Source: Pseudomonadota bacterium (GTDB taxonomy: Bacteria; Pseudomonadota; Alphaproteobacteria; Rhizobiales; Xanthobacteraceae). From it: 34,751 nt of DNA. The stretch spans positions 1-34,751 of the forward strand of contig JACQAE010000030.1 in NCBI GenBank assembly GCA_016195095.1, given 5' to 3'. Below are positions 29,420 through 34,751 of the stretch, piece after piece; within the stretch, counting starts at the first letter, position 1, and the number at the start of each line of letters is the position of its first letter. The translations under genes were made by a program, and so were the position numbers. The notes beneath the pieces were generated by a model, which worked only from the letters and a program-made list of their open reading frames with translations, ran no database searches and was not told the DNA's origin.

Positions 29420-30796
29420 TCACGCCGGCGCGCTGGCGGTGGCGACCACCTCCCTGGCCGGCGCGCGCACCAGCTTGGTCACCGCGCTTGCCGCGACGAT
29501 CGCCTGCTGCTGCGCGTAGGCCTCGTGGTTCTCCTCGATGTCGTCGAGATCGTAAAGATAGTTGACCATCAGGCCGTGCGCCTGCGCGATGCTGCGGTCG
29601 GAGGTGTCGCCCAACCAGTCGAGGCGCTCAAGCCGCGCGCCGTTACCAAGATGGAAGCGCGCGACCGCGTCGAGCGGCGTGCCGCGCGGCGAGCGCGCGC
29701 GCACGAAATAATAGGCGGCCGCGCGCATGAACGGCTCCTGCATCGCCGCCGCCGCGTCCGCATCCTTCCACCATTGCGGCCGATCGAGGCCGGCAAGCTT
29801 GGCGCGGTCGTCCGCCGACAGCACGACGGAGGCATCCGCCTTGCGCTCGCGCGCGAGCCAATCGGCAAGGCCCGGCGCCGGCGAGAGCGTCACGAAATTG
29901 GCAAGCCGCGGCAATTCGCGCGTGATCTCCTCGACCACCTGCTTGATGAGGAAGTGTCCGAAGCTGACGCCCGCCAGCCCGCGCTGGCAGTTGGAGATCG
30001 AGTAGAACACGGCAGTATTTGCGCGCGCCGGCGCCACCGGCTCGCCGTCGCCGTCAAGGATGGGGGCAATCGCGCCGGGTATCTCGCGCATCAGCGCGAC
30101 CTCGACAAAGATCAGCGGCTCGTCGACCAGGGCGGGATGGAAGAAGGCGTAACACCGCCGGTCCGGCGGATCGATGCGGCTGCGCAGGTCGTTCCAGTCA
30201 TTGATGGCGTGCACCGCCTCGTAGCGAATGATCTTTTCCAGGATGTTCGCCGGCGTCGACCAGTCGATCCGGCGCAACACCAGGAAACCGCGATTGAACC
30301 AGGACGAGAACAGGTGGACGAAGTCCGCGTCGAGCGCGGCGAGGTCGTCGCGGTGGCGCATGGCGTCGATGAACTGCGCTCGCATGCGCACCAGCGCCGC
30401 GGTGCCGCCGGGCGCGAGATTGAGCCGGCGCAGCAGTTCCTGGCGCCGCGGCTCGGCGGCGACGTGCAGCTCGGCCGCCGTCTCGTCGGTCTGCCTGCCT
30501 TGCCAGGCGGCGACGGCCCTGGCAATGCGCGAATGATCGGGGCCGAAATCGCGGGCGAGCGATTCAAAAAAACCGATGCGCGGGCCGGTCGTGAGGTCTC
30601 CGTATCGCGCCAGCACCTCGCGCGCGAGCGCGACGCCCGAGGCCTCGCCACGCCCCGAGAGGAGCTGCTCGCACAGCTCGACCAGGCTCGCCGATTGCTG
30701 CTCCGCCGCCTCGCGCCGGTCGCGCGTGCGCTCGATCAGCGAACGCCCGCGCTCCGCGATGGTCTGCAAGAGATCACCAAAAAACGATGTATTCAC
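29420..30796 (-). CDS. Malonyl-CoA decarboxylase
   Basis: The enzyme converts malonyl-CoA to acetyl-CoA and CO2, the last step of malonate use (MatA in rhizobia). The 458-residue protein has the N-terminal helical domain and the GNAT-like catalytic domain. Y-S-I-S (265-268), the conserved segment with the catalytic serine, is followed by G-L-A-G-V-S-F-G-H-F-L-I-K. The catalytic His lies in F-H382-L-G-N-G-A-R-L-E-R. The GTG at 30796 has GGGGA seven bases upstream and is preferred over the TTG at 30817. It is divergent from a CaiB/BaiF CoA-transferase across 131 bp, near a TRAP transporter. This suggests malonate or dicarboxylate catabolism. No malonyl-CoA synthetase (MatB) is visible. Confidence 0.94.
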   Translation of the reverse strand: MNTSFFGDLLQTIAERGRSLIERTRDRREAAEQQSASLVELCEQLLSGRGEASGVALAREVLARYGDLTTGPRIGFFESLARDFGPDHSRIARAVAAWQGRQTDETAAELHVAAEPRRQELLRRLNLAPGGTAALVRMRAQFIDAMRHRDDLAALDADFVHLFSSWFNRGFLVLRRIDWSTPANILEKIIRYEAVHAINDWNDLRSRIDPPDRRCYAFFHPALVDEPLIFVEVALMREIPGAIAPILDGDGEPVAPARANTAVFYSISNCQRGLAGVSFGHFLIKQVVEEITRELPRLANFVTLSPAPGLADWLARERKADASVVLSADDRAKLAGLDRPQWWKDADAAAAMQEPFMRAAAYYFVRARSPRGTPLDAVARFHLGNGARLERLDWLGDTSDRSIAQAHGLMVNYLYDLDDIEENHEAYAQQQAIVAASAVTKLVRAPAREVVATASAPA

Positions 30797-30803
30797 CGTG
30801 ACG

Positions 30804-30808
30804 TCCCC
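30804..30808 (-). promoter_or_regulatory. Ribosome binding site deciding the GTG start of malonyl-CoA decarboxylase
   Basis: GGGGA on the minus strand lies seven bases before the GTG at 30796. The in-frame TTG at 30817 would place this sequence inside the coding region. Confidence 0.5.
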
Positions 30809-30927
30809 GATTGCCAAGGCCTGCCGCCTGAGCGGCTGCGCGGCACAGGTATAGACAAATTCCGGCGATCAGGCGACACAGCCGTGACGCCTTGGCGGCG
30901 CGCCGCCACAACCTTGAGGTTTGCTTG

Positions 30928-32100
30928 ATGCCTGGTCCCCTTGCCGGCCTGAAAGTGCTTGAACTTGCTCGCATCCTCGCCGGGCCCTGGGCCGGACAGA
31001 TTCTTGCCGATCTTGGCGCCGACGTAATCAAGGTCGAGCGGAGCGGGACCGGAGACGACACCCGCGCCTGGGGACCGCCATTTGTCGCCGGCCACGGTGA
31101 GACGCATCTCGGCGCCGCCTATTTCCATGCTACGAATCGCGGCAAGCGCTCCATCGCGCTTGATTTCGAGGGCGAGGATGGCCGGCGCATCGTGCGCAAG
31201 CTCGCCGCACGATCCGACGTTTTGATCGAGAATTTCAAGGTCGGGGGCTTGAAGAAATTCGCCCTCGATTACGCGATCCTCGGTCCGGAAAACCCGCGCC
31301 TGATCTACTGTTCCGTTACCGGATTCGGCCAGACGGGACCCTATGCCGCGCGCGCAGGCTACGACCTGATGGCGCAGGGCATGGCCGGCTTCATGAGCCT
31401 CACCGGCGCGGCCGCGGGCGAGCCGACGCGTGCCGGCGTGCCAGTATCGGACATCTTCACCGGCGTCTATTCGGTCATCGGCATTCTTGCCGCGCTGGCC
31501 CGCCGCGAGAAGACCGGCAAAGGCGGATACATCGACACCGCGCTAATCGATACCACTGTAGGCGTCCTCGCCAACCAGGCGCTGAACTATTTCGTTTCCG
31601 GCGAGACGCCTGTGCGCATTGGCAACGCACATCCCAATATCGTTCCCTACCAGGTCTTCCCGGTCGCCGACGGCCATATCATCATCGCCACCGGCAACGA
31701 CGGCCAATACGTCAAGCTATGCGGCGTATTGGGAGCGCCGCAGCTTGCCCGCGACGCCACCTACAAGGACAATACCAGCCGGCTTGCCAACCGCGCGGCG
31801 CTAATCGAACTGCTCTGCGCGCTGACTCTGAAATTCCGCAGCGCCGACCTGCTCGCCCAACTGGCGGCGGTAGGCGTACCGGCGGGCCCGATCAATACGC
31901 TCGACCAGGTCTTTGCCGATCCGCAGGTCGTGCATCGCGGCCTGCGCATCGAGCCGGCGAGCGCAGATGCCAAGGATGGCAAGATCGCCGGCCTGCGCAC
32001 GCCGATCATGCTCGACGGCGCGCCCATGGCGTCGCCAAGGCCGTCGCCGCGCCTTGGCGAGCACACGCGCGAAATCCTGCGCGAGATCGGCGAGGGTTGA
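30928..32100 (+). CDS. CaiB/BaiF-family (type III) CoA-transferase
   Basis: Family III transferases move CoA between carboxylic acids through a covalent Asp intermediate. The 390-residue protein opens with P-L-A-G-L-K-V-L-E-L-A-R-I-L-A-G-P and has D-L-G-A-D-V-I-K-V-E, N-R-G-K-R-S-I-A-L-D, and the catalytic region A-R-A-G-Y-D-L-M-A-Q-G, where Asp is the nucleophile. P-T-R-A-G-V-P-V-S-D and the late G-V-P-A-G-P-I-N are also conserved. The ATG at 30928 follows GAGG by nine bases; an in-frame start at 30892 lacks a site. Its divergent neighbour makes acetyl-CoA from malonyl-CoA, so a malonate or succinate CoA-transfer role is possible. Substrate cannot be read from the sequence. Confidence 0.93.
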   Translation: MPGPLAGLKVLELARILAGPWAGQILADLGADVIKVERSGTGDDTRAWGPPFVAGHGETHLGAAYFHATNRGKRSIALDFEGEDGRRIVRKLAARSDVLIENFKVGGLKKFALDYAILGPENPRLIYCSVTGFGQTGPYAARAGYDLMAQGMAGFMSLTGAAAGEPTRAGVPVSDIFTGVYSVIGILAALARREKTGKGGYIDTALIDTTVGVLANQALNYFVSGETPVRIGNAHPNIVPYQVFPVADGHIIIATGNDGQYVKLCGVLGAPQLARDATYKDNTSRLANRAALIELLCALTLKFRSADLLAQLAAVGVPAGPINTLDQVFADPQVVHRGLRIEPASADAKDGKIAGLRTPIMLDGAPMASPRPSPRLGEHTREILREIGEG

Positions 32101-32129
32101 GCACGCAGAGCCTTAGGCCGCGCCGCGCA

Positions 32130-33449
32130 CTACCTCTTGATCTGGCCCATCATGGTGTCAGGGAGCCAAGTGGCGATTTCCGGAACCAGGCTCAGGATGA
32201 CGATACCCACCACCATGCACAGGACATAGGGCACCGAGCCGAGCAACACGGTGCGCGTCGGCACGTCGGGCGCGATGGCATTGACCACGAACAGGTTGAG
32301 CCCGACAGGCGGCGTGATCAGCCCGATCTCCATGTTGATGGTCACGATGACGCCGAACCAGACAGGGTCGAAGCCGGCTCCGGTGATGATCGGAAGCAGG
32401 ATCGGCGCGGTCATGAGGATGATCGCCGCCGGCGGGATGAAGCAGCCGCAGACCAGCAGGAAGAGGTTGATCATTCCCATCAGCACCCAACGATTGAGCT
32501 GCATCGCCGCGATACCTTGCGCCAATGTCTGGGTGAGATAGAGCGAGGTGAGCATGTATCCGAACAGCACCGCGGCCGCGATGATCATCAGGATCATCAC
32601 CGATTCTCGGGTGGTGTCGCGCAGGATCGCCCACCAATCGCGCGGCCGCCACATGCGGTAGATGATCACGGCAAGGACGACACAAAGCGCCGCCCCGACG
32701 CCGGCCGCCTCGGAAGGCGTCGCCACGCCGCCATAGAGCACGTAGAGGACGCCACCGACGATGAACAGGAACGGCGCCACCTTGGGGACGGATTCGAATT
32801 TTTCCTTCCAGCTATAGCGAAACCCCGCCGCGTAGGGACGGAAGCCCTGCATCCAGATATAAATCAGCGTGTAGAGAATGAAGAGCGTAGTGAGCAGCAG
32901 GCCCGGCATCACGCCGGCGAGGAACAGCCGCCCGATCGACGTCTCGGTGGCGATGCCGTAAAGAATGAAGGTAATCGAGGGCGGAATGAGAATTCCAAGC
33001 GTGCCTCCAGCGCAGATCGATCCGGTGGCGATCTCGTCGGGATAGCCGCGCTTGCGCATCTCGGGAATGCCCATCTTCCCGATTGCCGCGCAGGTCGCGG
33101 GTGAGGACCCGGTCAACGCCGCAAACAGCGCGCAGGCGCCGATATTGGAGATCACGAGGCCGCCGGGCACTCGATAGAGCCAGCGATCGAGCGCCTCGTA
33201 GAGGTCCTTGCCGGCCGGCGAGGTTCCGATCGCCGCGCCCATCATGATGAACATCGGGATCGATACCAGCGTAAAATCGTTGAGACCGGCGTAGAACGTT
33301 TCGGCGACCGCGCGCAGCGAATCGAGGCCATGAAACAGCACGAGGAACACGATGGAGATCGCTCCGAGCGCGAACGCGACCGGCGCGCCGGAAAGAAAAA
33401 CGACGACCGTGACGACGAGGACGAGCAAGCCCTGCTGGGTCGGCGTCAT
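32130..33449 (-). CDS. TRAP transporter large permease (DctM-type)
   Basis: This 439-residue integral membrane protein has about 12 predicted helices, the ion-coupled transport subunit of a TRAP carboxylate transporter. Family features include the P-V-A-F-A-L-G opening helix, F-I-M-M-G-A-A-I-G-T-S in the first half, A-L-T-G-S-S-P-A-T-C-A-A-I-G, and I-P-P-S-I near the middle. G-L-I-T-P-P-V-G-L-N-L-F-V, the standard DctM C-terminal signature, follows. The ATG at 33449 overlaps the small-permease stop (ATGA). It ends 30 bp from the convergent CoA-transferase gene. Confidence 0.94.
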   Translation of the reverse strand: MTPTQQGLLVLVVTVVVFLSGAPVAFALGAISIVFLVLFHGLDSLRAVAETFYAGLNDFTLVSIPMFIMMGAAIGTSPAGKDLYEALDRWLYRVPGGLVISNIGACALFAALTGSSPATCAAIGKMGIPEMRKRGYPDEIATGSICAGGTLGILIPPSITFILYGIATETSIGRLFLAGVMPGLLLTTLFILYTLIYIWMQGFRPYAAGFRYSWKEKFESVPKVAPFLFIVGGVLYVLYGGVATPSEAAGVGAALCVVLAVIIYRMWRPRDWWAILRDTTRESVMILMIIAAAVLFGYMLTSLYLTQTLAQGIAAMQLNRWVLMGMINLFLLVCGCFIPPAAIILMTAPILLPIITGAGFDPVWFGVIVTINMEIGLITPPVGLNLFVVNAIAPDVPTRTVLLGSVPYVLCMVVGIVILSLVPEIATWLPDTMMGQIKR

Positions 33450-33970
33450 GATCGATCATCCTGGCGTGGCGCGAGGCCGAAGGGCGGTTCGCGCCCGCTG
33501 ACCAAATTGATGACGTCGGCGATATATTGCAGCGACAGGATGCCAAGCCCGATCGGCATCGCCGCGTAGGGAATCCACAGCCGCGCCCGCCACATCGTGT
33601 CGGACACCCAGGCGTTTTCCCAGGCCTCGTGCCAGAACATAAAGGTCAGCACGCTCATCGCCAGCGCGAAGAACAGCGACAGGAACGCCGCGACCAGCGC
33701 CAGGCGATAGCGCATGCGCTGGCTGACATAGAGCGGCACGACGTCGACATTGACGTGGCCGCGCGTCATGAGCACGTAGGGGCTGCCGATGAAGGTCGCG
33801 GCGACAAGGCTATAGGTGACGAAATCGGTCTGCCAGATCGTGTTCTCATTAAGCACGTAGCGGGCGAACACCATCTGGCAGACGATGACGACGCTGGCGG
33901 CGATGAGCAGGCCCGCGACCACGCCGCAGGCCTGCGAAACGAGCGTGACGGCGCGGACGAAAACGATCAT
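33446..33970 (-). CDS. TRAP transporter small permease (DctQ-type)
   Basis: This 174-residue, four-helix membrane protein forms the membrane complex with DctM. Helices lie at about 13-35, 50-68, 90-112 and 133-155. The R-Y-V-L-N-E-N-T-I-W segment after helix 1 and the R-G-H-V-N-V-D loop are DctQ hallmarks. It begins at ATG 33970 and is translationally coupled to DctM through a four-base overlap. A strong GC hairpin (34003-34029) separates it from the binding-protein gene upstream. Confidence 0.92.
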   Translation of the reverse strand: MIVFVRAVTLVSQACGVVAGLLIAASVVIVCQMVFARYVLNENTIWQTDFVTYSLVAATFIGSPYVLMTRGHVNVDVVPLYVSQRMRYRLALVAAFLSLFFALAMSVLTFMFWHEAWENAWVSDTMWRARLWIPYAAMPIGLGILSLQYIADVINLVSGREPPFGLAPRQDDRS

Positions 33971-34002
33971 GCGGCGACTGTCCGAAGGCCGGGGTTTGCG
34001 GC

Positions 34003-34029
34003 CGGCCGGGGGCGTTGCGCCCCCGGCCG
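34003..34029 (-). terminator. GC-rich hairpin between dctP-like and dctQ-like genes
   Basis: A 12-bp perfect stem (34003-34014 with 34018-34029) closes a three-base TTG loop. It begins eight bases after the binding-protein stop. No T tract follows. Such hairpins behind binding-protein genes commonly protect the upstream message or partly terminate, giving more binding protein than permease. Confidence 0.6.
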
Positions 34030-34036
34030 CGCCACG

Positions 34037-34751
34037 TCATTTCACGGCCAGCGCTTCGTCGATCAACTTCTTGCCGTCGGGAACCTCCTTCGCGAATTGC
34101 GCGTAGGAGCTCTCGCGCGCCACACTCAGCCATTTGTCGTATTCCGCCGCCGTCATGCTGACGACCTCGACATTGTTGTCCTTGAAGGCCTTGACCATCT
34201 TGCTGTCGAGGCCGGCGGCCTCCTTGCGGAAATAGGCCTCCGATTTCTTGCCGGAGGCGAGCAACACGTCCTGCTGCTGCTTGTTGAGTCGGCTGAAGTT
34301 GCGCTTCGACATCAGCACCGGCTCATACATGAACCACAGTGCGTTCTCGCCCGGCGCGGTGATGCATTTGACCTGCTCATAAAGGCGGAAGGAAACGAAG
34401 CTACCGGTCGAGGTGTCGGTCGCGTCGGCGACGCCCGTCTGCAGCGCGTTATAGACCTCGTTTGAAGGGATCGACACAATCGATCCGCCGGCCTTCTGCC
34501 ACATGGCGGCGAATGTCGGGCCGGCGGAACGGATCTTCAAGCCCTTCATATCGTCGGGCGTGCGGATGCAGCCTTTCTTGGAGGCCACCGCGCCGGCGAG
34601 CCATGCGTCGGCCAGGACGATAACGCCGGCCTTGTCGATACGGCTGCGGATATCCTGCATGAACGGCGAATTATCGAGCCGCGCTGCGCGCTCGTGGTTG
34701 CGCACGAGGCCGGGCATGAGCGTGGCGCCGAAGGCGCGCACCTTGCCGCTA
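34037..34751 (-). CDS. TRAP transporter solute-binding protein (DctP-type), 5' end outside window
   Basis: This is the C-terminal 237 or so residues of a periplasmic TRAP binding protein; the frame is open to the window edge, where it reads S-G-K-V-R-A-F. Family features include the G-L-K-I-R-S-A-G-P segment with the conserved Arg that binds the ligand carboxylate, V-S-I-P-S-N-E-V-Y-N-A-L-Q-T-G-V-A-D-A-T, and the C-terminal helices. It is the first gene of the TRAP operon (binding protein, DctQ, DctM). The set resembles MatPQM-type and DctPQM-type transporters; the ligand is unknown. Confidence 0.93.
   Translation of the reverse strand, partial: SGKVRAFGATLMPGLVRNHERAARLDNSPFMQDIRSRIDKAGVIVLADAWLAGAVASKKGCIRTPDDMKGLKIRSAGPTFAAMWQKAGGSIVSIPSNEVYNALQTGVADATDTSTGSFVSFRLYEQVKCITAPGENALWFMYEPVLMSKRNFSRLNKQQQDVLLASGKKSEAYFRKEAAGLDSKMVKAFKDNNVEVVSMTAAEYDKWLSVARESSYAQFAKEVPDGKKLIDEALAVK

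Follow-up and report, generated by a model that had tools for sequence, protein, structure and literature searches.

A class III CoA-transferase as a proposed replacement for malonyl-CoA synthetase in a malonate-catabolic module of the Xanthobacteraceae

The terminal 5.3 kb of a 34,751-nucleotide contig from an alphaproteobacterium of the Xanthobacteraceae (JACQAE010000030.1, C307 in our numbering; the entire contig was analysed and is referred to as the window) carries five genes. These encode a malonyl-coenzyme A (CoA) decarboxylase (MCD, equivalent to MatA), a class III (CaiB/BaiF) CoA-transferase and the DctM, DctQ and DctP subunits of a tripartite ATP-independent periplasmic (TRAP) transporter. 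We propose that they constitute a malonate-catabolic module in which the transferase has taken over from the malonyl-CoA synthetase MatB, a reading to which we assign a probability of roughly 0.6. The putative replacement of MatB is well supported by comparative genomics.

Results

The original prediction that no synthetase accompanies the transferase now extends to the whole assembly (3.81 Mb in 307 contigs, 96% complete). A search of all contigs returned no MatB above the cut-off, the best NF005702 score being 269.5 bits against a required 558. Matches to this profile number 21, and seven of the strongest eight were scanned and each fits another ligase family better; the eighth, which has an internal stop, was left out of the family scan. 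The assembly encodes one MCD and also AcsA. As contig C307 ends at 34751, within dctP, the gene just past this position is unreadable.

Across the family, a conserved-neighbourhood comparison finds MCD mostly with one of two partners, the transferase or MatB. Surveys of 150 and then 229 relatives provided 122 MCD-bearing genomes of the window's family, with a transferase scored as linked when it lies within 12 kb of MCD. Such linkage occurs in 43 of the 122 genomes, which argues that the pairing is not due to chance. MatB is absent from 38 of these 43 and present in five. Among the 79 genomes without a linked transferase, 77 carry MatB, not always adjoining MCD, and two carry neither. The pattern is retained in linked genomes whose rounded completeness is 95% or more, where 23 of 26 lack MatB, including three assembled as a single contig each (G027, G055 and G079). 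Fisher's p for the exclusion is 1.2e-23, a value that ignores shared ancestry and is not to be taken as a probability. No MatB of at least 330 bits was found in the fetched transferase-type loci, both-enzyme loci aside. Both kinds occur within single genera, as genera g31 and g33 each include transferase-type and MatB-type members.

The two partners also share the same surroundings. TRAP transporters and SBP5 (dipeptide-type) ATP-binding cassette (ABC) transporters accompany MCD whether it occurs with the transferase or with MatB. For the SBP5-type ABC transporter, the loci with MatB are L141, L145, L150 and L158, and those with the transferase are L044, L049, L051 and L052. For TRAP, locus L143 has the order DctPQM-MCD-MatB without a transferase, its DctP and DctM being 76% and 80% identical to those of the window; L061 has TRAP-MCD adjoining a transferase without MatB; and L068 holds TRAP, MCD, transferase and MatB together. 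Among the loci retrieved first, those with TRAP next to the transferase have a DctP 60–84% and a DctM 75–83% identical to the window. The gene glpD is often near the locus, transferase-type and MatB-type alike. The window's gene order recurs in L047, L050 and L058. Elsewhere gene order and orientation vary, with divergent and convergent arrangements or TRAP in between, while the linkage of MCD and transferase persists.

Malonate is our best guess for the acid carried by the TRAP transporter, given the kinship of DctP to a malonate-holding protein and the related TRAP transporters found with MCD and MatB elsewhere. The nearest solved chain to DctP is 4mco/4mev at 145 bits, with the next at 69 bits. 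Malonate is described in the binding site of 4MCO, with the caveat in the same paper that the ligands relevant to templates of this kind need not be known (PMC4086125). Outside the family, six loci combine TRAP, MCD and MatB, and their DctP and DctM are 46–58% and 57–64% identical to those of the window. The genes run in one direction in L292, L296, L298, L301 and L318, and MatB is divergent in L286.

Membership of the transferase in class III is clear from PF02515 (CoA_transf_3; 407 bits against a cut-off of 23) together with a conserved Asp187 (402-residue numbering), the predicted acyl-anhydride-forming residue encoded at 31450–31452 on the plus strand. Asp187 aligns with an aspartate in four different solved homologues (4ed9, human SUGCT 9br6/9br7, 10uh and YfdE 4hl6) and is kept in each motif variant examined, these being the commonest four per transferase group. 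We take the equivalent aspartate to be the catalytic residue of class III transferases. The nearest solved chains are 4ed9, whose name carries no function, then human SUGCT 9br6/9br7 and 10uh. The best named family is the succinate-glutarate CoA-transferase NF052585, for which the score of 568.2 bits lies below the equivalog cut-off of 750. The transferase tree unites MCD-linked and ABC/MR-MLE-linked sequences with a support of 98 and separates them from those linked to gcdH. In the window's own genome GcdH is located on contig C119, unlinked to the transferase, and no second transferase was found at E 1e-160 or better.

In L070, L071, L072, L075 and L193, paralogues of the transferase (62–66% identical) are accompanied by an ABC transporter of dipeptide type and an MR-MLE enzyme of the enolase family; the L075 locus additionally encodes a molybdopterin oxidoreductase and a lyase of ADSL type. 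Genomes G012, G054, G055, G398 and G429 carry the paralogue and the MCD-linked copy on one contig, about 9–23 kb apart. A related transferase of Mesorhizobium ciceri WSM1271 (58% identical; L241:7989-10810) is directly followed by a protein with all three thiamine pyrophosphate (TPP)-enzyme domains, an arrangement that resembles the Frc/Oxc pair considered below.

Among the genomes examined, the swap between MatB and transferase is seen only within the window's family. None of the 32 MCD genomes of other families of the order has a linked transferase. The phylum sample comprised 249 genomes, 45 of them with MCD, from which 34 stretches were examined; 33 contained MCD, 31 of these originating outside the family. 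A class III transferase of at least 80 bits occurred in only one of these stretches, L302 (G336), where it is 42% identical and about 5 kb from MCD. It was ruled out as a MatB replacement, MatB being encoded just outside the stretch at G336:C21:81858. Of the best 80 public transferase loci, 10 have MCD in the stretch; they are titled Xanthobacteraceae, Pseudolabrys, Pseudorhodoplanes, Hyphomicrobiales or Proteobacteria metagenome-assembled genomes (MAGs), and one is a 'Rhizobium sp. Q54' MAG, names that make Xanthobacteraceae the probable family.

Some further MCD loci differ in content. The L302 stretch (L302:1-7500) contains MCD, TctC-type receptors, an enoyl-CoA hydratase family protein, a GntR-FCD regulator and the class III transferase. 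Five genomes from other families of the order (G116, G121, G125, G132 and G141; L170-L173 for four of them) have MCD but lack both a MatB that reaches the cut-off and a linked transferase. Within the family, G021 carries a TRAP-MCD locus (L162:374-4474) in a genome that lacks MatB as well as a close transferase.

In the window itself, the divergent arrangement of MCD and CaiB/BaiF CoA-transferase is as originally described, with every gene present and a clear family match for each. MCD occupies 29420–30796 on the minus strand (the open reading frame (ORF) as listed reaches 30817). It belongs to MatA, with matches far above cut-off to PF05292 (C-terminal domain, 353 bits) and PF17408 (N-terminal domain, 102 bits), and its nearest solved chains, 4ksa and 4ksf, are each named malonyl-CoA decarboxylase. 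Alignment with relatives ('MNTSFFG...') makes the GTG at 30796 its likely start. The transferase lies at 30928–32100 on the plus strand (listed ORF from 30892), with the ATG at 30928 as its likely start from relatives ('MPGPLAG...'). The divergent gap of 131 bases between them (30797–30927), read directly, presumably holds the promoters of both genes; a consensus promoter scan found no sigma-70-like site in this gap and gave no result better than chance. The TRAP genes were predicted to stand beside this pair, and all three are present: DctM (MatM-like; 32130–33449; TIGR00786 357 bits, cut-off 268; PF06808 317 bits), DctQ (MatQ-like; 33446–33970; PF04290 92 bits) and DctP (MatP-like; 34037–34750; NF037995 113 bits, cut-off 50; PF03480 112 bits). 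The N-terminus of DctP is missing, the gene being cut by the contig end. All three share the minus strand with MCD and converge on the transferase, and so do not form one operon with it.

Discussion

The substitution of a transferase for MatB stands as a genomic pattern, in that the assembly has no MatB, the two enzymes nearly exclude each other across the family and the transporter is of malonate type by relationship. Our model begins with import of malonate by the TRAP transporter. The transferase would then shift CoA from acetyl-CoA or succinyl-CoA to malonate via an enzyme-bound aspartyl anhydride on Asp187, and MCD would decarboxylate malonyl-CoA to acetyl-CoA and CO2. With acetyl-CoA as donor, transferase and MCD would run a self-priming, ATP-free cycle from malonate to acetate and CO2, and AcsA could reactivate the acetate. 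With succinyl-CoA as donor, malonate would yield CO2, acetyl-CoA and succinate. The ATP saving originally claimed for the transferase depends on this choice since the costs differ by donor. Acetyl-CoA with AcsA would cost two ATP equivalents, the same price as MatB, and succinyl-CoA would cost one in the form of a missed substrate-level phosphorylation. A saving would thus be made only with succinyl-CoA or when acetate is not reactivated by AcsA.

The proposed module has counterparts in several known systems. In the oxalate cycle the product of the decarboxylase can be the next CoA donor, and the decarboxylase Oxc is a thiamine diphosphate (ThDP) enzyme. This cycle pairs the formyl-CoA:oxalate CoA-transferase Frc with the oxalyl-CoA decarboxylase Oxc (PMC3720670), and a search of that paper for malonate terms found none. 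The window similarly combines a class III transferase with a decarboxylase whose product can be the next CoA donor. However, its decarboxylase is MCD rather than a ThDP enzyme, its acid would be malonate, and its transferase is SUGCT-like, with only 208 bits against 504 for TIGR03253. The Mdc malonate decarboxylase uses a carrier-protein prosthetic group; unlike in that complex, MdcA (TIGR01110) has no match in the window's assembly. Rhizobial malonate systems are described as matRABC and, in Sinorhizobium meliloti, the TRAP form matPQMAB (PMC5237526). The window resembles matPQMAB in its TRAP transporter and MCD, and relatives such as L143 are ordered in the manner given above. In contrast to matRABC and matPQMAB, a class III CoA-transferase takes the place of MatB, a comparison made with the published description of those systems. 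The reaction we propose, acetyl-CoA and malonate to acetate and malonyl-CoA, is that of EC 2.8.3.3. A Pseudomonas ovalis enzyme is described as acting as a malonate CoA-transferase, with EC 2.8.3.3 lacking a KEGG function number, in passages that deal with the activity and mention no CaiB gene (PMC8307300). The name malonate CoA-transferase also appears in PMC5727896.

Points concerning both the enzyme and its distribution weigh against a replacement of MatB. With respect to the enzyme, the active-site motifs of MCD-linked and gcdH-linked transferases are nearly alike, only four alignment positions separate the two at the thresholds used, and the transferase sequence appears to favour neither malonate nor glutarate. 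As the motifs do not separate the groups, it is context rather than sequence that points to malonate. We infer the substrate of the transferase, its CoA donor and its direction, and one of the genome's own 21 ligase-profile matches could activate malonate. The transferase might instead be a SUGCT-like enzyme for glutarate and succinate, or a broad dicarboxylate type, with a main substrate other than malonate and another acyl-CoA ligase activating any malonate. Its nearest characterised relatives are of SUGCT type, with 9br6/9br7 aligning over nearly the full length and the Asp kept. The near-identical motifs of the gcdH-linked paralogues, the presence of GcdH without a second transferase at E 1e-160 or better in the genome and the location of paralogues in ABC/MR-MLE clusters are also consistent with such an enzyme. 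We nevertheless regard this as unlikely. The partner of the transferase is MCD and not glutaryl-CoA dehydrogenase, to which it is unlinked in its own genome, the MCD-linked sequences group separately from the gcdH-linked ones, the NF052585 cut-off is missed and the near-exclusion of MatB is left unexplained. An improbable alternative is that the pair acts on intracellular malonyl-CoA, as donor or in balancing its level, while TRAP imports another diacid. CoA-transferases are reversible and MCD in other organisms also controls malonyl-CoA, but the occurrence of related TRAP transporters with MCD and MatB inside and outside the family, and the resemblance of DctP to malonate-holding 4MCO, argue for import of malonate.

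With respect to distribution, a matB gene beside the TRAP genes, which would contradict the original prediction, is absent from the window's assembly, yet five genomes from genera g11 and g38 have transferase and MatB both near MCD. G053 probably belongs with this both-enzyme group across a contig break; it is counted among the 77 MatB genomes because its MCD runs off the contig end, with an MCD fragment adjoining its transferase. In G021 and G396, MCD occurs without either partner at the thresholds applied. In the transferase tree, each genome tested for MatB within a 35-row branch (support 90) lacks it, and the copies that co-occur with MatB (L062, L066, L067 and L068) fall outside, together with ABC/MR-MLE paralogues in a 10-row sister branch. 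The exclusion may therefore reflect few events, and one loss could explain much. The two kinds are interspersed on the MCD tree, where linkage changes 8 times and MatB 12 times. However, well-supported branches of this tree provide only four independent pairs (median sign-test p 0.25), in which on average MatB is opposite to linkage in 2.9 and shows no difference in 1.1, too few for significance. Hitch-hiking of the transferase beside MCD in one old inherited arrangement, with MatB lost once for other reasons, would suit the single MatB-lacking branch and the scarcity of contrasts, but is very improbable given that linkage persists through changes of order and orientation, that g31 and g33 include both kinds and that the kinds are intermixed on the MCD tree.

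Our preferred reading thus remains a malonate-catabolic module in which the transferase replaces MatB. A more far-reaching version, in which a class III acetyl-CoA:malonate CoA-transferase and MCD supply genes for EC 2.8.3.3 and form an ATP-free malonate cycle that has supplanted the MatB route across a wide range of Xanthobacteraceae-like Alphaproteobacteria, is a tentative proposal that we hold to be rather doubtful. The module appears to be a variant of the MatA-type malonate pathway and new as far as the literature searched, in which we found no description of a transferase-for-MatB swap; most subscription journals lie outside that literature. Malonate degradation by Rhodopseudomonas palustris is reportedly the topic of a 2020 paper. 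Bacterial malonate use has so far been described via the ATP-dependent MatB or the Mdc complex. If our reading is correct, a class III transferase would represent a third way of activating malonate and would provide genes for the EC 2.8.3.3 reaction. Prediction based on MatB would then wrongly score 38 of the 122 MCD-bearing genomes of the family as unable to use malonate.

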